From the NCBI GenBank assembly GCA_021847305.1, contig JAJZTZ010000012.1:1-35176 (forward strand): a DNA stretch of 35,176 nucleotides. Direction: 5' to 3'. This stretch comes from Pseudomonadota bacterium. GTDB lineage: Bacteria > Pseudomonadota > Gammaproteobacteria > Burkholderiales > JAJZQI01. Positions within the stretch are counted from its first letter, which is position 1. Each line of letters begins with the position of its first letter. The translations under genes and the position numbers were made by a program. This document shows positions 5,833 through 24,771 of this stretch, piece by piece. Below the pieces are notes generated by a model. The model was not told where the DNA came from. It did not search any database and saw only the letters and a list, made by a program, of their open reading frames with translations.

Positions 5833-7088
5833 TAGATCCTAATTTGGCCGTCGCCCAGTACCACCCACTTCTGGCTGGTCAGACCTTCCAGGCCAACCGG
5901 ACCACGGGCGTGGATTTTGTCGGTGGAAATGCCGATTTCCGCGCCCAGGCCATATTCGAAGCCGTCGGCAAAGCGGGTGGAGGCATTGACCATGACCGAA
6001 CTGGAATCCACCTCGCGCAGGAAACGGCGCGCCCGCGTATAGTCTTCCGTCACAATGGCTTCGGTGTGCTGCGAGCTGTAGCGGGCGATGTGGTCGAGCG
6101 CGCCGTCCAGATCGTGCACCAGCTTGATCGACAGAATCGGAGCCAGGTATTCCTCGTGCCAGTCTTCCTCGGTGGCGGCCTTCATGGCCGGTACGATTAC
6201 ACGTGAGGCCTCGCAGCCGCGCATTTCCACGCCTTTGGCAGTGTAGATATCCGCCAGCTTCGGCAGCACGCTATGGGCGATGCCGGCGTGTACCAGCAGG
6301 GTTTCCATGGTGTTGCAGGTGCCGTAGCGGTGCGTCTTGGCATTGTCGGCAATGCGGACAGCCTTTTCCACATCGGCCTTGTCGTCGATGTAAACGTGGC
6401 ATACGCCGTGCAGGTGCTTGATGACCGGCACGCGCGCTTCGTTGCTGATACGCTCGATCAGGCCCTTGCCGCCACGCGGCACAATCACGTCAACGTAATC
6501 CTTCATGGTAATCAGTTCGCCCACCGCAGCGCGGTCAGTGGTCTCGATCACCTGTACGGCGGTTTCCGGCAGACCGGCCGCGGCCAGGCCCTCACGCACG
6601 CAGGCGGCAATGGCCTGGTTGGCGTGAAAGGCTTCCGAACCGCCGCGCAGGATAGCGGCATTGCCGGATTTCAGGCACAGCGCAGAGGCGTCGGCGGTCA
6701 CGTTGGGGCGGGCTTCGTAAATGATGCCGATCACACCCAGCGGCACGCGCATTTTGCCTACCTGAATACCGGACGGGCGGTAGTTGAGGTCGGTCATGGC
6801 GCCGATCGGATCGGGCAGGGCGGCGATTTGTTCCAGCCCTTCGGCCATGGAAGCAACCGTCTTCTCCGTCAGCGTCAGGCGGTCAATCAGGGCGGGCTCC
6901 AATCCTTTGGCGCGCGCTTCATCCAGGTCTTTGGCGTTGGCGGCAAGCAAAGCGGCGCTGTCGCGGCGGATGGCGGCGGCCATGGCCAGCAGGGCAGCGT
7001 TTTTGGCATTGGTGTCGGCCCGCGCCATGGCGCGGGCGGCATTGCGGGCTTTTTGCCCGACTTCCAGCATGTATTCAGAGATATTCAT
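5832..7088 (-). CDS. proA: Glutamate-5-semialdehyde dehydrogenase (gamma-glutamyl phosphate reductase)
   Basis: [67 protein letters not shown] overlap with nadD. Confidence 0.98.
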
Positions 7089-7111
7089 GGTGAATCAAGG
7101 TCTCAAAAAAA

Positions 7112-8140
7112 TCAGTGCAGTTCCTTAACCAGCAGTTTGCCACGCGCCAGCGTCAATGTCAGTGCTTCCAGGCGTGCCCAGGGTTCGCCGCTGCCAATTC
7201 CTTTGATAGCGCGGTCGACCTCGGTCAATTGTGTCAGGCAATAGTGCAACGCTTTCAGGCTGAGCCGGCCCAGCGCTTTTTCATACAACGGTTTGCGCGA
7301 ATCCCAGATGCGCAACTGCTGCCACAGCCCCGTCAGCGGCTGGCCGGCTTGCTGGGCCGCTTTCAGGCGCGCCAGCGCGCGCACGTCGTCGGCCAGTTTC
7401 CATACCAGAATGGTGGGGGCGGTGCCCTCATCCTTCAGTCCGGTCAGGGTTTTACCGGTACGCGCCACGTCGCCGGCCAGGATCGCCTCGCTCAGCTTGT
7501 ACACGTCGAAACGGGCAACATCGAGCACGGCGTTCTCCACTGCGGCAAAAGCCAGCTTACCCGCGGGCAGCAGCAAGCCGAGCTTGCGGATTTCCTGCTC
7601 GGCGGCCAGCAGGTTGCCTTCCACCCGCTCAGTCAGAAACTGCAGCACGTCACGGTCGGCAAACTGCTGTTGCCGCGCCAGCCGCTGCTCGATCCACTGC
7701 GGCAGACGGTGACGTTCGACCACGGGAATGGCGATGCTGACGCCGGCCTTGTCGAGCGCCTTGAACCACACGCTGCTCTGGCTGGTCTTGTCGAGCCTGG
7801 GCAGGGTGATCAGCGTCAGCGTGTCGGCCGGCAGCTGGGCGCAGTATTCCTGCAATACCTTGCTGCCTTCCGCACCCGGTTTGCCGCCGGGGATGCGCAG
7901 TTCGACAATACGCCGTTCGGCAAACAGCGACAGACTGGCGCCGCTGTGCAGCAGCTGCTGCCAGTCGAACCGGCCTTCCACGGTAAACACTTCGCGCTCC
8001 GTGTAGCCTTGCTGGCGAGCGCTCTGGCGCAGCTGATCAACCGCTTCGAGCTGCAGCAGGGCTTCGTCAGAATGAATGACGTAAAGCGCGGCCAGGCCCT
8101 GCTGCAGATGCGTTGTCAGCTGGTCAGGACTGAGCTGCAT
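7112..8140 (-). CDS. holA: DNA polymerase III delta subunit (start MQLSPDQLTTHLQ)
   Basis: LYVIHSDEALLQLEAVDQLRQSARQQGYTEREVF and AILAGDVARTGKTLTGLKDEGTAPTILVWKLADDVR typical of HolA; position between lptE and proA; the 15 residues upstream of MQLS in the ORF track are unlikely. Confidence 0.94.
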   Translation of the reverse strand: MQLSPDQLTTHLQQGLAALYVIHSDEALLQLEAVDQLRQSARQQGYTEREVFTVEGRFDWQQLLHSGASLSLFAERRIVELRIPGGKPGAEGSKVLQEYCAQLPADTLTLITLPRLDKTSQSSVWFKALDKAGVSIAIPVVERHRLPQWIEQRLARQQQFADRDVLQFLTERVEGNLLAAEQEIRKLGLLLPAGKLAFAAVENAVLDVARFDVYKLSEAILAGDVARTGKTLTGLKDEGTAPTILVWKLADDVRALARLKAAQQAGQPLTGLWQQLRIWDSRKPLYEKALGRLSLKALHYCLTQLTEVDRAIKGIGSGEPWARLEALTLTLARGKLLVKELH

Positions 8141-8634: not shown

Positions 8635-11253
<2,619 letters not shown>

Positions 11254-11283
11254 TTATGAATTCGGGTTAAATCAAAACCTTGC

Positions 11284-11289
11284 ATTATA
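11284..11289 (-). promoter_or_regulatory. Candidate leuS -10 box (TATAAT on minus strand)
   Basis: Reverse complement reads CGGAGTATAATGCAAGG, 34 bp upstream of the leuS start. Confidence 0.55.
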
Positions 11290-11299
11290 CTCCGAAAGC

Positions 11300-11355
11300 G
11301 TGAGGCGTGAGGCGTGAGGCGTGAGGCGTGAGGCGTGAGGCGTGAGGCGTGAGGC
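11300..11355. repeat. Heptanucleotide tandem repeat (GTGAGGC)x8
   Basis: Eight perfect consecutive GTGAGGC units plus partial GTG. Confidence 0.98.
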
Positions 11356-11406
11356 GTGCGCGGGAGTCTCTGCGATAATAGCAATTTGAGTTCAGAAAGA
11401 TACAGG

Positions 11407-11625
11407 ATGCAAAAAGTCACGTTTGAATTGACCGGCGAATACGTCGAGCTGTGTAATTTGCTCAAGCTGACGGGCGTGGCCGATAGCGGCGGACAGGGCA
11501 AGGTACTGGTGGCGGACGGCCAGGTTAAAGTGGATGGCCAGCCGGAGAGCCGCAAAACCGCGAAGATCCGCGCCGGGCAGGTGGTGGACTGCATGGGCGT
11601 GCGGATTGAGGTGGTGGGCGGCTGA
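11407..11625 (+). CDS. RNA-binding S4 domain protein (YbcJ-like)
   Basis: MQKVTFELTGEYVELCNLLKLTGVADSGGQGKVLVADGQVKVDGQPESRKTAKIRAGQVV is a compact S4 domain; upstream in-frame extension in ORF track begins inside/after the VNTR and lacks support. Confidence 0.88.
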   Translation: MQKVTFELTGEYVELCNLLKLTGVADSGGQGKVLVADGQVKVDGQPESRKTAKIRAGQVVDCMGVRIEVVGG

Positions 11626-11675
11626 ACAGTGAGCGGTGAGCAGCAAACGGTAAACGGAGAGGGAGAGAGAGTAAG

Positions 11676-11930
11676 TTTCCCCGCCCACCGGGCGGGGACG
11701 GAAGGGGTGGGGACATTTGATTTGGGCCGGGATATTCCGAACCGGCAAAGGGCCGGGCTGGCCCCGGTCTTGCTCGCGGCGAGAGATAGGCGCCTGCAGC
11801 CCAAAGACTTTCCCCGCCCACCGGGCGGGGACGGAAGGGGTGGGGACATTTGATTTGGGCTGGGATATTCCGAACCGGCTAAGGGCCGGGCTGGGCCCGG
11901 TCTTGCTCGCGGCGATAAACCGGCAACCCC
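11676..11930. repeat. 133-bp-period tandem repeat, two copies (11676-11808 and 11809-~11930), each starting with a GC-rich hairpin CCCCGCCC-ACC-GGGCGGGG
   Basis: First 107 bp of the two copies differ at 3 positions by eye; the ends then diverge. Confidence 0.93.
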
Positions 11931-12023
11931 CAGCCCAAGGTGACAAACTGCTGATTTTGTGGCTACAATAGCCGATTGATTTTTAACCTTTGTCTATATA
12001 CCTGACTCTTGGGGAGTTGCCAG

Positions 12024-12914
12024 ATGTCGAAGAAGCACCCAGTTGTAGCTGTTACCGGATCGTCCGGTGCGGGTACCACCACCGTTAAGCGCGCGTTCGA
12101 GCACATTTTCCGTCGCGAAAACATCAACCCGGTTGTGATCGAAGGCGATAGCTTCCACAGCCTGAACCGCGTGGAATTCCGCGAAGCGGTGAAAAAGGCT
12201 GAAGCCGCTGGCAACAAGAACCTGTCCCACTTCGGTCCGGAAGCCAACCATTTCGACAAACTGGAAGAGCTGTTCAAGTCCTACGGTAAAAACGGCAAGG
12301 GCAAGAAGCGTTACTACCTGCACAGCGATGAAGAAGCCGCCGAGCACAATGCCCGTCTGGGTACCAAGCTGAAGGCCGGTGAATTCACTCCGTGGGAAGA
12401 TCTGCCGGGCGAATCCGACCTGCTGTTCTACGAAGGTCTGCACGGCCTGGTGAAAACCGACAAAATCGACGTGGCTCAGCACGTGGATCTGGGCGTGGGC
12501 GTAGTGCCTATCGTCAACCTGGAGTGGATCCAGAAGATTCACCGCGACAACAAGGAACGCGGTTACTCTGCTGAAGCGATTGTAGACACCATCCTGCGCC
12601 GTATGCCGGATTACGTGAACCACATTGCGCCGCAGTTCTCCCGTACCCACGTGAACTTCCAGCGCGTATCCACCGTGGATACCTCCAATCCGTTCATCGC
12701 GCGCGACATTCCGACTCCGGATGAGAGCTTTGTGGTGATCCGTTTCAGCGAACCGAAGGGTGTTGATTTCCCCTACCTGCTGAACATGGTTCCGGATTCC
12801 TTTATGTCCCGTCGCAATACCATCGTGGTGCCGGGCGGCAAGATGGGCTACGCCATGGAGCTGATCCTGACCCCGATGATTCACGATCTGATCGAAGGTC
12901 GCAGCAAGAAATAA
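12024..12914 (+). CDS. prk: Phosphoribulokinase (PRK family, PrkB-like)
   Basis: P-loop VVAVTGSSGAGTTTVKRAFEHIF, VIEGDSFH, FYEGLHGLVKTDKIDVAQHVDLGVGVVPIVNLEWIQKIHRD; SD GGGGAG upstream. Confidence 0.95.
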   Translation: MSKKHPVVAVTGSSGAGTTTVKRAFEHIFRRENINPVVIEGDSFHSLNRVEFREAVKKAEAAGNKNLSHFGPEANHFDKLEELFKSYGKNGKGKKRYYLHSDEEAAEHNARLGTKLKAGEFTPWEDLPGESDLLFYEGLHGLVKTDKIDVAQHVDLGVGVVPIVNLEWIQKIHRDNKERGYSAEAIVDTILRRMPDYVNHIAPQFSRTHVNFQRVSTVDTSNPFIARDIPTPDESFVVIRFSEPKGVDFPYLLNMVPDSFMSRRNTIVVPGGKMGYAMELILTPMIHDLIEGRSKK

Positions 12915-12929
12915 GCTTTGACCGGCGCT

Positions 12930-12958
12930 AAAAAACCCCGCTGCGGCGGGGTTTTTTT
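12930..12958 (+). terminator. Rho-independent terminator after prk
   Basis: aaaaaaCCCCGC-tgcg-GCGGGGttttttt. Confidence 0.93.
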
Positions 12959-13002
12959 ATGCTTGTGCTACACTCAACTTTAAAGATTTCATTGGAGAAG
13001 CC

Positions 13003-13587
13003 ATGTCAAACTCATCCGATCCGATTACGTTAATGGGCAGTACTGCACGCAACCCCGACCTGAACTGGAGCCAGGTACGCGAGACGATTCTGATGCTGGA
13101 GCTGGCTATCGCCCAGATTGACGTGGCATTGCGCGACAGTGATGGCTCGGTTTCGGTGCTGACGAGCACGTTTACCGCGATGATGGGTTTCATGAACGAC
13201 ATTCAGGAAGAAATTGCCAAATTGCCGGAAGACGGTGAGTGCAAGCACATCAAGGATCGGGTGACTCGCTACGGGCAGAGTGTCACCGGCATGATGCAGG
13301 AATCGATTGTCGCATTCCAGTTCTACGACAAGCTGACCCAGCGGTTGAACCATGTCGGCGTGAGCGTGAAGCATCTGTCGGAGCTGATCAGCAACCCGGT
13401 CAAGCTGTATAACCCCGGCGAATGGGTTAAGCTGCAGGAGGAAATTCGCGGCAAGTACACCATGGCGGAAGAAGTGCTGATGTTCGATGCGATCATGGAA
13501 GGCGGCACCGTGGAAGAGGCCCTGGCACGCTATCGGGCGGCTCTGGAAGAGAGCAAAAAGAAGCTGCATGATATCGAGCTGTTCTAG
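13003..13587 (+). CDS. Helical conserved protein with CheZ-like D-x-x-x-Q motif (function not established)
   Basis: 195-codon ORF with SD (GGAGAAGCCATG); predicted helical; SIVAFQFYDKLTQRLNHV resembles the CheZ catalytic helix region. Confidence 0.75.
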   Translation: MSNSSDPITLMGSTARNPDLNWSQVRETILMLELAIAQIDVALRDSDGSVSVLTSTFTAMMGFMNDIQEEIAKLPEDGECKHIKDRVTRYGQSVTGMMQESIVAFQFYDKLTQRLNHVGVSVKHLSELISNPVKLYNPGEWVKLQEEIRGKYTMAEEVLMFDAIMEGGTVEEALARYRAALEESKKKLHDIELF

Positions 13588-13862
13588 ATCGTGTGGGCAA
13601 TTGCCGACAGATCTTTCGTCTCCCTGATGGATTGTGCCTACTCTTGCCTTGCCAGAGGCGGAGCGCGCGTGTTAGTTTTCGTTCGTTGCAAATAATAAAT
13701 CGCCTGTCATACGGCTTGACTGCCGGCAGCGCGAAATAATGGCTCCCCCCGATCGCTCCACCCAATTTGTGCAATGATGGCCCCCGGCAGGACTGTGTCT
13801 GTCGGTGTGCGTCTTGTGGCGTGCGGCGGGAAAACAGAACGTTTCCACAAGGATCAGGCACA

Positions 13863-16800
13863 ATGGCACAGCGTCCAGACTACATTTACCCCGGCGGTTC
13901 AGTCGTGATGCATTCCCCGCTCGCGCTCAAGCGAGCCAGCATGTACGGATTTTTTCTCAAGGGCCAATTGGCCCAGTTGCAGCAGACTGTTGATACGGCG
14001 CTCAATCAGGTGGCTGCTGGCCGTATGCGTTTCAAGGTACTGTCGCCTTATGTCATGACCACCTTTACCCGCATCGGTCACGCCAACTCCACGATGCCGG
14101 TGGACGAAGCCAAGGGCTGGATCACCGAGATCGATATCATTACCTGGATCATGGTCGGCCGCATGGACCCGCAGGGCAAGATCGAACATGTTTACTGGTA
14201 TCCCTGCCACGTGTTTGTCGACAATGCCATGGCGCTGATCAATGGCCGCGAACTGTACGGTTACCCGAAATACCTGTGCCAGTATGAAATCCCCCAGGAT
14301 GGCACTCCGCCTTTGCGCTTCACCGTGGCGGCCGAGGGCTTTCAGCCATTTGGCGAGAACACCCAGATTGCGCTGCATCCGCTGCTGGAAATCAATGCCG
14401 GCAAGCAGCTCAATCCGGACAAACCATTGCAGAATTTTCTCGAATTTCTCGGCGAGGCGCTGGAGCTGCTGGCATCCATGCCCGACTTCCTCGACCTTGA
14501 TGCGGCGGGCTGGGCCGATATCCTTTCCCTGCTGCGCAACCCCCGCAACGACCAGATTTTTCTCAAGCAGTTTCCCGACTCCGCCGGGGAAAAGGCGGTG
14601 TATCAGGCTATCGTTGCCGCGCCGGCCGAGGTGAATGCATTTCATGGCGGTTCCTTGCTCGGTTACGAATACACCGCGACCGTGCACCCCTTTGCCAGTT
14701 TTCCGCTGGACCAGACGCTTGGATTGCCATTGGGCGATTCGCCGGCGATTCTGCCGTTTAACCTGCAGTTTGACTTTACTGTGATGCAAGGGGATGAGCT
14801 GGTGGACAACTCGCACATTCAGCCGGAAAAGATTGCCATTCTCGGCGGTGGCGTCAGCGCCATGACCACGGCCTACTATCTGACCAGCCAGCCGGGTTGG
14901 CAGAACAAGTATGACATCACCGTTTACCAGATGGGCTGGCGCATCGGCGGCAAGGGTGCCAGCGGCCGCAATGCCGAATACGGCCAGCGGATCGAAGAAC
15001 ATGGCCTGCATATCTGGTTCGGCTTTTATGAGAATGCCTTTGCCACCATCAAGGAAGCCTATGCCGCGCTGAACCGCCCGGCCGGGGCGCCGCTGGCAAC
15101 CTGGGAAGATGCCTTCAAGCCGCATAACTACGTAGTTACCGCGGAGTTCATCAAGCAGCAGTGGCAAATGTGGAATATCGATTTCCCTGTGCTACCGGGT
15201 GTGCCGGGCGATGGCGAGGAATCCCTCAGCCTGTGGCAGATGGCCGTGGCCGTATGGGGCTGGATCAAGAAACTGCTGGGCGAGATCAAGGCCAACCATC
15301 TGGCCGAACCGGCGCATGCGCGACTGTCGGCGCCGGGCGCTCATGCGGACTGGCTGCATCGTGTGGCCGGCGAACTGAAGCGGGACGTCGATGAACTGGC
15401 CGGTGATGTGGCCGGCCTGGTTCATGATCTGCACATCATGGCGGGCGATCTGGCGGATATTGCCGTCGATCATGCCGGCATCAAGCGCGGGTTGCTCCAC
15501 TCGGCAGCAAAGGACGTGAAAAAATGGCTCGATGCCACGGTGATGAAAGAAACCGATGGCAATGATGAACTGCGCCGCCTGTACATTTGTGTGGATCTGG
15601 GCGTCACAGTGCTGTCAGGCATGGCCGAGGACGGTGTGTTCGAGAACGGTTTTGACGTGATCAACAATCTGGATTTCCGCGCCTGGCTCACCAAGCACGG
15701 CGCCAATGTGCCGATTACGGTGCAGTCCGGTCCGGTGCGCGGCCTGTATGACCTGATTTTTGCCTACGAGAACGGCGAATACGACAAACCCAATGCCGAG
15801 GCGGGTACCCTGCTGCGCGCCATGTTGCGGGTGGGTTTTGCCTACAAGGGCAGTCTCATGTACAAGATGCAGGCGGGCATGGGCGATACCATTTTTACGC
15901 CGTTCTACCAGGTGCTCAAAGAGCGCGGCGTGAAATTCAAGTATTTCCACAAGGTGGAGGAGCTGCTGGCGGATGGCGACGAGGTCGGGGAAATCCGGCT
16001 GACCCGGCAGGTGGAGCTCAATCATGATGGCGAGTACCAGCCGCTGGTGGACGTGAAGGGCTTGCCCTGCTGGCCGAGCGCGCCGCTGTATGATCAGATT
16101 AATGCCGAGCAGGCGGCGCTGTTGCAGGCCAATAATGTGAATCTGGAGTCGAACTGGAGTAATTGGCCGGAGTTGTATCAGCAGCAGTTCGGCAAGCCGC
16201 TGCCGCAGCTCAGCCTGAAAAAAGGCCGCGATTTCGACAAGGTGGTGTTCGGCATTTCCGTTGCCGCACTGCCGCAGCTGTGTCCGGGGTTGGTGGCACA
16301 GAGCCCGGCACTGCAGAAGGTGGTTGAGCATGTCATGGCGGTGCCGACCCAGGCCTACCAGGTGTGGCTCAATCAGGATCTGGCGCAGATGGGCTGGACC
16401 GAGCGTCCGGAAGGTCAGCAGCCGGTGCTCAGCTCATTCAGCGAGCCGTATGATACCTGGGCGCCGATGGATCAGTTGCTGTGCCGGGAAGACTGGTCCG
16501 CTGCGCTGGAGCCGAAGAATGTGTCGTACTTCTGCAGCGTGTTTCCGGTGACGCAATACCCGCCGATCAGTGACCACGCTTTCCCGCAGCGTTGCGCCGA
16601 GCAGGCCAAGCAGGGCGCCATCGACATGCTCAATCAGCGTATCACCGCGCTGTGGCCGAATGCCGGCAGTGCCGGTGGATTCAACTGGAGCTGGCTGATT
16701 GACCCAAACAATGCCCAGGGGCCGGCGCGTTTTGACAGCCAGTACTGGCGTGCCAATGTCGACCCGTCCGAGCGCTACGTGCTGTGCGTGGTCAACAGCT

Positions 16801-16982
16801 CGCAATACCGTATTGCGACGGATGGCTCCGGTTTCAAAAACCTGTTCATGACCGGCGACTGGATCAGGACCGGGCTCAATGCCGGTTGTGTGGAAGGTGC
16901 GGTGATGGCGGGCATGCAGACTTCGCGTGCCATGACCGGCTTCCCGAGGGTGATCAAGGGCGAGACCGATTTCGCCCCCTGA
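13863..16982 (+). CDS. Fusion protein: N-terminal acetoacetate-decarboxylase-like domain + C-terminal FAD-dependent amine oxidase/phytoene-desaturase-like domain
   Basis: Start MAQRPDYIYPGG with SD AAGGA; ADC-like VDNAMALINGRELYGYPKYL; Rossmann IAILGGGVSAMTTAYYL, GWRIGGKGASGRN, EEHGLHIWFGFYENAF; C-terminal NLFMTGDWIRTGLNAGCVEGAVMAG. Confidence 0.88.
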   Translation: MAQRPDYIYPGGSVVMHSPLALKRASMYGFFLKGQLAQLQQTVDTALNQVAAGRMRFKVLSPYVMTTFTRIGHANSTMPVDEAKGWITEIDIITWIMVGRMDPQGKIEHVYWYPCHVFVDNAMALINGRELYGYPKYLCQYEIPQDGTPPLRFTVAAEGFQPFGENTQIALHPLLEINAGKQLNPDKPLQNFLEFLGEALELLASMPDFLDLDAAGWADILSLLRNPRNDQIFLKQFPDSAGEKAVYQAIVAAPAEVNAFHGGSLLGYEYTATVHPFASFPLDQTLGLPLGDSPAILPFNLQFDFTVMQGDELVDNSHIQPEKIAILGGGVSAMTTAYYLTSQPGWQNKYDITVYQMGWRIGGKGASGRNAEYGQRIEEHGLHIWFGFYENAFATIKEAYAALNRPAGAPLATWEDAFKPHNYVVTAEFIKQQWQMWNIDFPVLPGVPGDGEESLSLWQMAVAVWGWIKKLLGEIKANHLAEPAHARLSAPGAHADWLHRVAGELKRDVDELAGDVAGLVHDLHIMAGDLADIAVDHAGIKRGLLHSAAKDVKKWLDATVMKETDGNDELRRLYICVDLGVTVLSGMAEDGVFENGFDVINNLDFRAWLTKHGANVPITVQSGPVRGLYDLIFAYENGEYDKPNAEAGTLLRAMLRVGFAYKGSLMYKMQAGMGDTIFTPFYQVLKERGVKFKYFHKVEELLADGDEVGEIRLTRQVELNHDGEYQPLVDVKGLPCWPSAPLYDQINAEQAALLQANNVNLESNWSNWPELYQQQFGKPLPQLSLKKGRDFDKVVFGISVAALPQLCPGLVAQSPALQKVVEHVMAVPTQAYQVWLNQDLAQMGWTERPEGQQPVLSSFSEPYDTWAPMDQLLCREDWSAALEPKNVSYFCSVFPVTQYPPISDHAFPQRCAEQAKQGAIDMLNQRITALWPNAGSAGGFNWSWLIDPNNAQGPARFDSQYWRANVDPSERYVLCVVNSSQYRIATDGSGFKNLFMTGDWIRTGLNAGCVEGAVMAGMQTSRAMTGFPRVIKGETDFAP

Positions 16983-17001
16983 AGCTTGCTTGCTCCCCCG
17001 C

Positions 17002-18702
17002 TCAGGCCTGGGCGGGGGAAATGGTTGGGTCTCTTTGCGGACGGTTGCTTCGGCGCGACAGCTTGTGTTCATACATCAATTTGTCTGCCTGGGTATATAG
17101 ATCGTTCAATGACAGACAGCTGTTGGCGTAGGCCACACCGAAGCTGACCCCGGTTTCAGCGAAACCGGCCTGCCAGAGATTTTGTTCGATGCGTTTCAGC
17201 CCGCTGCTCAGGCGCGGCTCTTCATCGCGGTGCGCCAGAATGGTGAATTCGTCTCCTCCCAGGCGGTAAAACGAAACGCCGGGATTTTCCAGTTTTTCCA
17301 GTTCTCGGGTAAAGCGGCACAGCAGCTCATCGCCGCGCGCGTGACCGTATTTGTCATTGATGGTTTTCAGGCCGTCCAGGTCAATGAGGAACAGCATCAG
17401 GTCGCAGCCGTTGTCCGGTTTTGGCTGGAGGATTTTTTCGGCCAGATCAAGATCGAACGCATGGCGATTGAGAATGCCGGTGAGGTGATCGGTGCGTGCC
17501 AGTTTCATGGTGGAGTAGAGGCGCTGCAGGGCATGGTCTTTCTCACCGGCCAGGCGGCGGATTTTGTCGGCCAGGGCAAATGCCAGCAGGACCGCATCCA
17601 GCGTGCCGCCGAGCAGAGTGAACAGTTCCGGATTGGGCACCAGACTGGGCATCAGGCCGACATTGGCGGGCAGGATAATGAGACCGGGAATGAGCAGTGC
17701 CATGAATGCCAGTATGAAATAGCGTGCCGGACGGAAGCCGCTGCGCAGGCTGGCAATACCGCAAGCCAGGGCAATGAACAGCCACAGGCTGATGGCCGCG
17801 GTAGCCAGCATGTGCGCGTAGGGCAGCAGGATGAAGCAGCTCGGTAACAGGGCCAGCGGCAGAATCAGGTTGATGCGGCTGAGTTTGGCCAGCCGCGGGA
17901 AGTAGCGCGGCAAATCGAGGAAGTGCAGGTAGAACAGGGTATTGAAAACCGGCAGCAGGAAAAACGGGATGTAATGAACATGCAGGTTGTGCCAGCCTAA
18001 CAGCTCGGCAGGCAGCTGAAAGGTCAGAGCCCAGCCGGCAAAATAGGTGAGCAGATAAATGGCGTAATAAAAGTGCGCCCGGTCATGATGAATGGTGTAA
18101 ATGAAAAAGTTGTACAGTGCCAGGGTAAGCAGGGCACCAAAAGCTGCCAGAGCCAGCACATTCTCCAGCAGCACATGCTGGCGGTAGGCGCCCTGCGTTT
18201 GCACTACCAGTGCCGGCGTGGCGGCATAGTACGGGCTTGCTATACGCATCAGGATAAAGGCGCTTTGCCCCGGTGGCAGTGTCAAATTTTTGCCGTAGTG
18301 CAGCATGTATTCGTGCTGGGCACGGTAGCCGGTATGTAATTGCTGCACCGCGCCGCCGGGAAGATAAATATAGGCGGTGACCTGGTCGATCAGACGTCCG
18401 TCGGGGTCGAGGACCCACTGGCTGTTATCAGTTGGGTTGTGTACGGCGACATAAAGCCAGTAGGCGCCGCCGAACAGACTGATTTTTTCGGCTGGCTGAC
18501 GTTGCGCCAGCCAGCCAGGCAGATCTTGCGCCGTTGCTGGAGCGGCTTCCGGGCCTGCCTGATACAACTCGGCATGAGAAAACAGGGCGACGCGACGATC
18601 GCTGGACAGTTCAACTGCTGCGTGGCCGGGCAACGACAGGGCGAGCAGGCACAGTGCCAGCAAAAACAGGCCGATCTGTCTTGTATTAGCGCGCCATAAC
18701 AC
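17002..18702 (-). CDS. Diguanylate cyclase with 7TMR-DISM extracellular and transmembrane modules (GGDEF)
   Basis: Signal peptide, FGGAYWLYVAVHNPT, multiple TM helices, ARTDHLTGILNRHAF, LIDLDGLKTINDKYGHARGDEL, RLGGDEF. Confidence 0.93.
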   Translation of the reverse strand: MLWRANTRQIGLFLLALCLLALSLPGHAAVELSSDRRVALFSHAELYQAGPEAAPATAQDLPGWLAQRQPAEKISLFGGAYWLYVAVHNPTDNSQWVLDPDGRLIDQVTAYIYLPGGAVQQLHTGYRAQHEYMLHYGKNLTLPPGQSAFILMRIASPYYAATPALVVQTQGAYRQHVLLENVLALAAFGALLTLALYNFFIYTIHHDRAHFYYAIYLLTYFAGWALTFQLPAELLGWHNLHVHYIPFFLLPVFNTLFYLHFLDLPRYFPRLAKLSRINLILPLALLPSCFILLPYAHMLATAAISLWLFIALACGIASLRSGFRPARYFILAFMALLIPGLIILPANVGLMPSLVPNPELFTLLGGTLDAVLLAFALADKIRRLAGEKDHALQRLYSTMKLARTDHLTGILNRHAFDLDLAEKILQPKPDNGCDLMLFLIDLDGLKTINDKYGHARGDELLCRFTRELEKLENPGVSFYRLGGDEFTILAHRDEEPRLSSGLKRIEQNLWQAGFAETGVSFGVAYANSCLSLNDLYTQADKLMYEHKLSRRSNRPQRDPTISPAQA

Positions 18703-21557: not shown

Positions 21558-22928
21558 TTAGGGCAATGCCGGACTTGCCAGTATTGATGCGCATTGCCTT
21601 GCCAATGCGCCCAGGATGTGCGTAAACAGCGGGCGCTCCGCCGCCGCTTCGTGCAGACAGGCCTGTTTCAGTTGCTGCAGACCCTGCCAGGCAACATCGG
21701 GCGGGTCGTCCAGGTCGCAACGTTGCAGTAATTCTTCCAGTAAATAACCGAAAGCGCGCACCTCCATGCGCTGCAACGCCTGTATCTGCTCGCTGTTGCA
21801 CTGTCCCAGTAACGAGGCGGCGCCGAAATCTCCCAGCAGGCACTCTCCTTCGCCATCATGCAGAATATTGTGCGCGTACAGATCGCCGTGCAGGATGCCG
21901 TGCTCATGCAGATGCACGATTGCCGCGGCGATGGCGTGCGCCAGTTTGAGGGCGGTGGTCAGGCTAAAACGGGTCTCCGAAGCATACACGTCGCGGGTAC
22001 AGGATTCCAGGCTGGGTGGGCCGGCCAGGCTGATAAAACGGCTATCGAGCAGTGCCAGTATCAAACCCGCCTGATTATCCGGATGCTGCTCCAGCTTACC
22101 GTGCAGCCCGATGAGGGCCGGATGACGGCCGGCCAGGAGGCTGGCGGCCATTTCGCTATGCGGCAGCCCGTCGCTGGTGACGCTGCCTTTAAACAGTTTG
22201 ACGGCGACTTGCCGGGTGCTGCCGGTGTCGTCCTGCCAGGATGCCTGATGAATGACACCGGAGGCCCCGGCGCCCAGTTGCTGCTGCAGCTGCAGCCGAT
22301 TCCAGGCGACGGCGGGAATGGCGCCGGTGTTGAGGGTGGCCTGTTCTTGCGCTGCACACAGCGGATTGCCGCCAAATGCCAGCCAGGTAAGGCGTGGCAG
22401 GGAAAAGAGCACGGCCGGCAAAGTGGAGAAGTGGTTAGCGGAAATACGCAGCAATTCCAGATTGCGGCAATTTGCCAGAGTGTCGGGTAAAGACTGCAGG
22501 CGGTTGCCGGCCAGCATCAGTTTTTGCAGCTGGCGGCATTGGCCGATCTGTTCCGGTAATTCAGTCAGCTGGTTATCGGTCAGGATAAGCCAGCGCAGTG
22601 CCCGACCCAGTGCGGCTGGCGGAATGTGGCGGATCTGGTTGGATTTGAAGCCGATCATGCTCAGTTGCGGGCATTGCCCCAGCACTTCCGGCAATTCGGT
22701 GAAGCAATTGTTGGAAGCAAACAGAATACGCAATTTGTGCAGACGGCCCAGGTCCGGCGGCAGGGTCGACAACTGGTTGCCGGACAGGTCGAGAATTTCC
22801 AGCGAATCGGCCAGTTGGTAGATTTCCGCTGGAAAGGTGGTCAGGCCGCAGGCCAGATTGAGGCGCCGGGTTCCCGCCAGCTTGCCGGCGCGCAGTTGCG
22901 CGAGTGTGTCTATTGCCATGTTATTCAC
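21558..22928 (-). CDS. Leucine-rich-repeat protein kinase-like fusion
   Basis: LRR series LEILDLSGNQLSTLPPDLGRLHKLRIL...; kinase motifs LGAGASGVIHQ, VAVKLFKG, HGDLYAHNIL, GDFGAAS. Start could be 22919 (MAID) instead. Confidence 0.9.
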   Translation of the reverse strand: MNNMAIDTLAQLRAGKLAGTRRLNLACGLTTFPAEIYQLADSLEILDLSGNQLSTLPPDLGRLHKLRILFASNNCFTELPEVLGQCPQLSMIGFKSNQIRHIPPAALGRALRWLILTDNQLTELPEQIGQCRQLQKLMLAGNRLQSLPDTLANCRNLELLRISANHFSTLPAVLFSLPRLTWLAFGGNPLCAAQEQATLNTGAIPAVAWNRLQLQQQLGAGASGVIHQASWQDDTGSTRQVAVKLFKGSVTSDGLPHSEMAASLLAGRHPALIGLHGKLEQHPDNQAGLILALLDSRFISLAGPPSLESCTRDVYASETRFSLTTALKLAHAIAAAIVHLHEHGILHGDLYAHNILHDGEGECLLGDFGAASLLGQCNSEQIQALQRMEVRAFGYLLEELLQRCDLDDPPDVAWQGLQQLKQACLHEAAAERPLFTHILGALARQCASILASPALP

Positions 22929-23031: not shown

Positions 23032-24771
23032 CTAGTTGCCGCGTGCTTCGCACTGCATGAAGTGGCTGGCGGAGATGCGGTCGCGCCCTTCCTGCTTGGA
23101 CTGGTAGAGCAGGTGGTCGGCTGCGGCAATCAGCGCGTCCAGGGTGGCGTGTCCGGCTTCTTTCTGCGCCACGCCGAAGCTCGCTGTGACGCGTGTTTCG
23201 CCCGTTTCGTGGGGGATGTGCAGTTGGGCGATGCCGGCGCGCAATCGTTGTGCCAGCTGGACTGCTTCGTCGGGGCTGGTTTCCGGCAGAAAGACGATAA
23301 ACTCTTCTCCGCCCCAGCGCGCCACAATGTCGTACTGGCGCACCGACGCCTGCAGCAAACGGGCGATGGCCACCAGCACCTTGTCGCCGTGTGCGTGCCC
23401 GAGCGTATCATTGATACGCTTGAACCAGTCGATATCAAGCAGTATTACCGAAACGCAGCGTCCGCTACGCTGGGCCATGCTCCAGGGAGCAGCGGTTTTG
23501 TCGTAGAACGCCCGCCGGTTGTTCAGTCCGGTCAGCGGATCTTTTTGCGCCAGCTGTTCTGCTCTTAAGCGTTCTTCCTGGCCGACGCGGAACTGGTAGG
23601 CCAGCGCCAGAGCCAGCAGCGTCGCATCCAGCAGCATGCCCAGTTCCACGGCATGGTAAGTCCAGTTGTTAAACGGGATGAAACCCCAGACCGACAGCGT
23701 GGTCAGCGCCGCGCCAATCATGGCTGCCAGAGCGGCAATGAGAAAATAGCGTGCCGGCTTGTACCCCGCGCGTACCGAGACAGTGCCGAGCACCAGCATG
23801 ATGATGGAAAAGAGAAAGACGAAAACAAAAGAAAGCAGCAGGGCATACACCTGACTGTGCAATGCCACCGCGGCAGTCATCAACAGGCCGAATAGTGCAC
23901 TGTAGCCAATCAGGCCGCGGTGGAGGCGCGGAAAGTTCGCCTTTGTATCAAGAAATCGAGCTGCAAACATCAACCCGCTGAGCGCATAAGCGAAGATAAG
24001 CAGCGGGTGCGACCACAACTGCCATTTGATCGAGTTCGGCCACAGCCAGGCAAAGCCGTGGCCGGTATAGGTGAGGTTCATGCTGAGGAACGTTGCCAGA
24101 TACAGCGCATAAAAGAGAAAGCGCTGACTGCCCAGGCTGAAGAACAGCATGGCATTGTATGCCATCAGGGCGATCAGGGAGCCGTAAATCAGACCATAGG
24201 TATATTCCTGTCGAACTTCCCGTTCGCGCGCCGCATCGGCGGTTAGCAGGTAAAGGGGAACAACCATCGGGTCGGGTGTGGCGATGCGGATGAACAGATC
24301 GGTTGTTCCCGGAGCAAAAGACTGCTCCACGGTGAAAAAGCGGCCGACAATCGGGCGCGAGGTGAAGGGCAGGGCGTCGCCCATGTGATAGGTGGACAAG
24401 CGCGATCCAGCGCTGGAAAAGTAGATGTCGACATGGTCGAGCCAGGTGTTTTCCAGCACCAGTCGGCGTGTGAGCGGCGCTGTGGTCGGGTTGTTTACTG
24501 CCAGATGCAGCCAGGCCGGCCTGGCGCCAATACCGAAGTTGGGCACGGCCGTGGTCGTGGCGGTAAATTTGCCGGCCCGGTAGAGCGCTTCTGCCTCGGC
24601 GGGCGTGAGGGGCCCCTGCTGTTCCTGCAGGCTGGAGGTAAACAAGCCGAGTGGGTGCTGTGACGGGTAAAGCAGCGAAATGGGTGATACGCCTGCCTGC
24701 GCGCTTGAGGCGAGGAAGGCGAAAAACAGCAGTATCAGCAATGCGCGAAGTTTCATTGTCTCAATCTGCAT
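23032..24771 (-). CDS. Diguanylate cyclase with 7TMR-DISM modules (GGEEF)
   Basis: Signal peptide, GIGARPAWLHLAVNNPT, TM helices, DPLTGLNNRRAF, DIDWFKRINDTLGHAHGD, RQYDIVARWGGEEF. Start may be 24756 (MKLRALLIL). Confidence 0.93.
   Translation of the reverse strand: MQIETMKLRALLILLFFAFLASSAQAGVSPISLLYPSQHPLGLFTSSLQEQQGPLTPAEAEALYRAGKFTATTTAVPNFGIGARPAWLHLAVNNPTTAPLTRRLVLENTWLDHVDIYFSSAGSRLSTYHMGDALPFTSRPIVGRFFTVEQSFAPGTTDLFIRIATPDPMVVPLYLLTADAAREREVRQEYTYGLIYGSLIALMAYNAMLFFSLGSQRFLFYALYLATFLSMNLTYTGHGFAWLWPNSIKWQLWSHPLLIFAYALSGLMFAARFLDTKANFPRLHRGLIGYSALFGLLMTAAVALHSQVYALLLSFVFVFLFSIIMLVLGTVSVRAGYKPARYFLIAALAAMIGAALTTLSVWGFIPFNNWTYHAVELGMLLDATLLALALAYQFRVGQEERLRAEQLAQKDPLTGLNNRRAFYDKTAAPWSMAQRSGRCVSVILLDIDWFKRINDTLGHAHGDKVLVAIARLLQASVRQYDIVARWGGEEFIVFLPETSPDEAVQLAQRLRAGIAQLHIPHETGETRVTASFGVAQKEAGHATLDALIAAADHLLYQSKQEGRDRISASHFMQCEARGN

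Follow-up and report, generated by a model that had tools for sequence, protein, structure and literature searches.

The window analysed here, a 35,176-nucleotide stretch of DNA, encodes an enzyme in which an acetoacetate decarboxylase (ADC)-fold half is joined to a complete flavoprotein half. The relatives of this enzyme almost always have a signalling protein as neighbour, so that the enzyme probably produces or alters a small molecule sensed by the cell. As a best but still tentative explanation, we propose that enzyme and sensor form a small-molecule signalling module, in which the enzyme makes or modifies the molecule sensed by the receptor. The neighbour is a more informative finding than the fusion itself.

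One open reading frame carries an ADC-fold half and a flavoprotein half

The enzyme ORF (positions 13863-16982, + strand) starts at an ATG and encodes 1039 aa. Its frame is open from a TTG at 13767 to the stop at 16982 with no interruption, and the ATG at 13863 is aligned with the start position of relatives. Window-type ORFs were found in many genomes at 37-86% identity. A frameshift or an assembly join, which the original prediction had named as fatal to a natural fusion of an ADC-like and an FAD half, was rejected because the fusion is uninterrupted in sister and distant genomes. Pfam matches and Foldseek searches with AlphaFold models agree with the fusion as predicted, the full-length model reaching a pLDDT of 90.3 and a pTM of 0.73.

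The N-terminal domain (residues 1-315, positions 13863..14807, +) narrowly exceeds the Pfam cut-off for ADC (PF06314, 30.9 versus 29.8 bits) over residues 106-159. It was modelled from an alignment of 24 relatives, plasmid-derived sequences being left out, with a pLDDT of 91.5 and a pTM of 0.90. When this model was compared with the PDB by Foldseek, all 24 matches at E<=0.001 were ADC-fold proteins (best E 6e-14), among them ADC, MppR and the aldolase-dehydratase of S. bingchenggensis, so that the ADC fold proposed for this half was recovered. Lys136, encoded at 14268..14270 (+), occupies the Schiff-base lysine position in the motif GRELYGYPK, as judged by conservation and by alignment to ADCs. 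It is identical in 29/29 relatives, and G128, E130, G133, G85 and W95 are likewise invariant. When the ADC half was searched as a profile against sequences of the PDB, K136 paired with the lysine of GRELWGFPKK in 3bgt.

A profile alignment to classical ADC, itself weak, also places Lys115 of that enzyme on K136. In the same weak alignment, equivalents of its Arg29, Glu61 and Lys116 are not conserved: the first two are paired with non-equivalent residues and the third is a Tyr in the window protein. The CaADC sequence that served as classical reference is 55-63% identical to annotated ADCs. The NCBIfam acetoacetate decarboxylase model NF002614 gave 11.7 bits against a cut-off of 150, and assignment to classical acetoacetate decarboxylase by family model was rejected on this ground. 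Schiff-base chemistry is likely at this half, judging from its residues. Since the lysine is invariant and the other three residues are not conserved in the weak alignment, another Schiff-base reaction, such as an aldol or dehydration-type one, is as possible as a decarboxylation. The protein resembles the ADC superfamily (PF06314; ADC, MppR, the Sbi aldolase-dehydratase, Swit_4259) in its fold and in the Schiff-base lysine of a GRE..GYPK motif. In contrast to the solved members, to which it is only ~10-16% identical, it is fused or linked to a flavoprotein and falls below the NCBIfam cut-offs.

The C-terminal FAD oxidoreductase domain (residues 320-1039, positions 14820..16979, +) was delimited by Pfam, Foldseek and conserved residues. 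NAD_binding_8 (residues 326-398) and Amino_oxidase (residues 949-1024) both exceed the Pfam cut-offs, and both the FAD-binding motif and the phytoene-desaturase fold are present. The best Foldseek matches of the full-length model were to rice phytoene desaturase (E 4e-15, TM 0.74 by target length); next came further proteins of the flavin amine oxidase type and ADCs. The nearest solved fold is therefore the one expected of the phytoene-desaturase-like flavoprotein originally proposed. Among 29 relatives of at least 31% identity many positions are near-invariant (e.g. GGG328-330, R360, E379-H380, C1009 and E1011), which argues for one conserved reaction. By NCBIfam, likeness of the ORF to hydroxysqualene dehydroxylase (HpnE), carotene desaturases and ADC is weak and far below all cut-offs. 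The HpnE model gave 38 bits versus 283 and the ZDS model 28.5 versus 622; as these equivalog cut-offs were not reached, a carotenoid desaturase or HpnE by family model was rejected. The dinucleotide-binding motif and the overall fold are shared with phytoene/zeta-carotene desaturase and HpnE, whereas the window protein is ~250 residues longer and has other conserved motifs.

The two halves are coupled in several arrangements

The flavin half is patchily distributed: at E<=0.001 a match was obtained in 21 of 348 Burkholderiales genomes, in a few cases a weak one, and relatives also occur in other Pseudomonadota, in Actinomycetota, in one Deinococcales bin and on a Bacteroidota plasmid. The ADC-FAD fusion is found in the window type and also in G054, G844 and L015. 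The reverse FAD-ADC fusion is found in Thermoleophilaceae, G013/G701/G870, as well as in L044 by Pfam and in L096 because it resembles L044. Elsewhere the halves are encoded side by side, ADC then FAD in Dyella and Catenovulum and FAD then ADC in Azospirillum, and in four loci (L094, L097, L107, L108) the FAD gene belongs to a longer cluster that has ADC as a separate, tandem gene. No ADC was detected near the FAD gene in L018, L046, L095, L098, L099, L100 and L106; the L016 locus ends at a contig end. The flavin-half tree requires several changes between these states.

Such a Rosetta-stone pattern, with fusions in both orders and adjacent genes, indicates that the halves work together and that their order is not fixed. 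The coupling of the halves that had been predicted thus holds beyond the fused form, and the suggestion that they might be found elsewhere as adjacent separate genes was answered by their occurrence in both orders. The same facts speak against a fixed channel between the two sites: with a domain order that can be inverted and halves that often exist as proteins of their own, such a channel is unlikely to be essential. One contig labelled Candidatus Eremiobacteraeota (L022) sits tightly within Dyella in both the receptor and the flavin trees and is probably misbinned.

Signalling genes adjoin the enzyme across lineages

The gene had been described as standing alone, with no neighbour to explain it. 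This did not hold: of 29 lineage representatives, chosen as one locus per lineage except for two Thermoleophilaceae, 25 have a signalling or regulatory gene immediately next to the enzyme set, the exceptions being L018, L026, L029 and L042. As the neighbours themselves had supplied the queries, a second count admitted only matches to queries from other loci; in it, signalling or regulatory proteins occupy 25 of 57 flanking positions versus 8 of 183 at positions 2-5 (Fisher p 7e-12). The association is to be read with the facts that gene calls are our own, that loci were collected by their similarity to the window protein and that positions are partly dependent. Both counts led us to reject a chance neighbour. 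Genes at the loci were called by codon usage, and the receptor beside the enzyme in L012, L016 and L020 was shown by tblastn. Homology clustering of neighbours gave one signalling cluster common to 37 loci.

Partner architectures differ between lineages while the linkage persists. A 7TMR-DISM protein with a GGDEF domain was identified by Pfam in the window, in the Deinococcales locus L013 and in the Gammaproteobacteria locus L014, and by homology in L010-L012, L016, L017, Dyella, L091, L102 and L104; L015 has a hybrid histidine kinase (Pfam). Class III cyclases with an AAA_16 domain (STAND), some with TPR, were assigned by Pfam in L044, L096, L099, L100, L105 and L109, with homologues in L094 and L107. 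Giant proteins with Ser/Thr kinase, AAA_16 and GAF domains and a cyclase or histidine kinase end are the partners in L043, L046, L092 and L095 (Pfam). Pfam further gave AAA_16 alone in L101, AAA_16 with BTAD in L108 and a winged-helix Trans_reg_C protein with TPR in L106, the last with homologues in L097 and L098. The relative orientation of enzyme and partner varies (convergent, divergent or co-directional), which means that shared transcription does not generally account for the linkage.

Three neighbouring genes deserve separate mention. Directly downstream of the fused enzyme in L092 lies a gene (10570-17724, +) for a 2384-aa protein with Ser/Thr kinase, AAA_16, GAF, PAS, histidine kinase, receiver and Hpt domains. 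In L093, remnants of an L101-type AAA_16 partner gene (7086-7555, -) adjoin the enzyme and apparently represent a decayed partner. The "CheZ-like" ORF of the window (13003-13587, +) has no Pfam match and is a real gene, since it is 88% identical in the sister genome L010.

A dedicated receptor diguanylate cyclase accompanies the window-type enzyme

The window partner (17002..18702, -) is transcribed convergently with the enzyme. By Pfam it comprises a periplasmic 7TMR-DISMED2 domain, a 7TMR-DISM 7TM region and an intact GGDEF domain, that is, an extracytoplasmic domain and a second-messenger output with no DNA-binding domain. Among 348 Burkholderiales genomes, 10, counting its own, have orthologues of its sensor and 7TM regions at 46-80% identity; the next matches were at <=32%. 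These 10 include every one of the 7 genomes that carry the window-type fusion. The remaining three (G938, G884, G939) keep the receptor, and the enzyme is cleanly absent from them: in L111 the flanks from either side of the enzyme are only 78 bp apart, and in L112/L113 the receptor is the immediate neighbour of the gene found before the enzyme in L012. All aligned subfamily members, those of the enzyme-less genomes included, have an intact GGDEF active site. Retention of the receptor is expected if it can respond to a compound made by others and, together with the extracytoplasmic domain, leads us to favour a diffusible cue.

The receptor tree contains a branch with 100/100 support. On one side of it are all 20 enzyme-adjacent receptors, 4 orphan orthologues and 2 long-branch generic receptors; the other side holds 13 of the 15 generic receptors, the window's own paralogue among them. 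This generic 7TMR-DISMED2/7TM/GGDEF paralogue (23032..24771, -; Pfam) lies outside the module, 4.3 kb from the partner and 29% identical to it, and serves as an internal control. Together, these results show that in the window clade a dedicated receptor subfamily is tied to the enzyme.

In the Deinococcales bin enzyme and receptor occur together, in a relative orientation that differs from that of the window, and the receptor was missing from 100 other Deinococcota genomes searched. Transfer of enzyme and receptor as a pair is likely, misbinning being an alternative still to be kept in view. The genome of this bin (G446) gives one flavin-half match and carries a second receptor of the dedicated subfamily (L129), 69% identical.

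Neighbours suggest a hydrophobic substrate

A polyprenyl synthase clusters with the flavin gene in three lineages (L094, L097 and L099), and some clusters hold a saccharopine-dehydrogenase-like reductase and a tandem ADC. Zinc-type dehydrogenases adjoin the flavin gene in L094 and L107, DUF2855 does so in L029, and FadL is present in the enzyme cluster at L101 and in Azospirillum. From the desaturase fold together with the polyprenyl synthase, FadL and reductase neighbours, we infer that the substrate may be hydrophobic, perhaps isoprenoid. The isoprenoid cue comes from distant, clade-restricted relatives, none of it from the window. Elsewhere in the window genome there are two genes of the squalene/phytoene synthase family; most genomes checked have such genes too, so this does not discriminate. 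Carbohydrate binding is predicted for the 7TMR-DISMED2 domain (PMC8846402, PMC6107284), a poor fit with a hydrophobic ligand. A RoxA-like cytochrome c of the rubber oxygenase family, encoded beside the enzyme gene in L105 (5432-7276, -), points in the same direction as FadL and the polyprenyl synthases.

Possible functions of the enzyme-sensor pair

In the signalling module that we favour, the flavin half would act as an oxidoreductase or desaturase on a hydrophobic, probably isoprenoid, compound, and the Schiff-base lysine domain of the ADC superfamily would act in the same pathway. The product or modified molecule would then be sensed by the adjoining receptor, a step that we infer from the gene linkage, and converted into a c-di-GMP output; in other lineages the enzyme would be tied to other transducers, mostly class III cyclase or kinase STAND proteins. 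A bolder form of this proposal, which we hold to be rather unlikely, is that a desaturase-like and ADC-fold enzyme produces an isoprenoid-derived signal of an undescribed signalling class, with interchangeable receptors (7TMR-DISM diguanylate cyclases, class III cyclase and kinase STAND proteins) and with receptor-only bacteria listening in.

The main rival is that no signal is made and that the adjoining protein is a local regulator, which would sense the substrate of the enzyme and activate a specialised step of catabolism or biosynthesis. We give this a real, though clearly minority, chance. Partners of the STAND, BTAD and Trans_reg_C-TPR kinds could just as well be pathway-specific regulators: several are STAND proteins, one of them with BTAD, others are winged-helix TPR regulators of a type usual in pathway control, and the FadL importers, reductases and polyprenyl synthases of some clusters look metabolic. 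However, a c-di-GMP output with no DNA-binding domain, as in the window-type partner, does not suit such a role, nor does the retention of the receptor, active site intact, in three enzyme-less genomes. Alternatively, the fusion could be a bifunctional metabolic enzyme whose flavin half oxidizes a substrate to a beta-keto acid that the ADC half decarboxylates, the signalling linkage being secondary. Both halves do retain cofactor or catalytic signatures, and their coupling is seen in fusions of either order as well as in adjacent genes, but this reading would leave the widespread sensor linkage unexplained, and the residues of classical ADC other than the lysine are missing in the weak alignment; we consider it improbable. 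Still less probable, and in our view very doubtful, is that the enzyme pair is itself the sensor, the flavin/Schiff-base protein binding a metabolite or reporting redox state and touching the cyclase directly with little turnover. Its strong conservation and its link to many kinds of transducer would fit, whereas the partners have sensor domains of their own, periplasmic in the window, and the invariant lysine and intact flavin motifs suggest catalysis.

Relation to known systems

Genes for a biosynthetic enzyme and a membrane sensor are linked in CqsA/CqsS, LqsA/LqsS and RpfF/RpfC. The proposed module resembles these pairs in the conserved linkage of an enzyme gene and a dedicated receptor gene. 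It differs from them in that the enzyme and receptor families are unrelated, in that the linkage reaches cytosolic STAND cyclases and in that its signal is a proposed one. The partner shares its domain architecture and intact GGDEF domain with 7TMR-DISM receptors with GGDEF output, such as NicD (PMC6107284), but unlike generic 7TMR-DISM-GGDEF proteins it belongs to an enzyme-tied subfamily with 46-80% identity within Burkholderiales and ~30% to generic receptors. In the open-access literature we found no description of the ADC and FAD enzyme architecture, also when combined with cyclases, polyprenyl synthase, RoxA or quorum sensing; the folds are known ones, and the conserved, widespread enzyme-sensor module in which they occur is undescribed there.

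For most c-di-GMP receptors, and 7TMR-DISM proteins in particular, no ligand is known, and the pairing of a dedicated enzyme gene with a dedicated receptor gene provides a direct and testable route to one of these ligands. That different transducers are exchanged around a single conserved enzyme suggests a shared molecule, read in several ways across phyla. Elsewhere in the window, positions 21558-22928 (-) encode a 456-aa protein in which leucine-rich repeats precede a protein-kinase domain (Pfam), an architecture unusual in bacteria.
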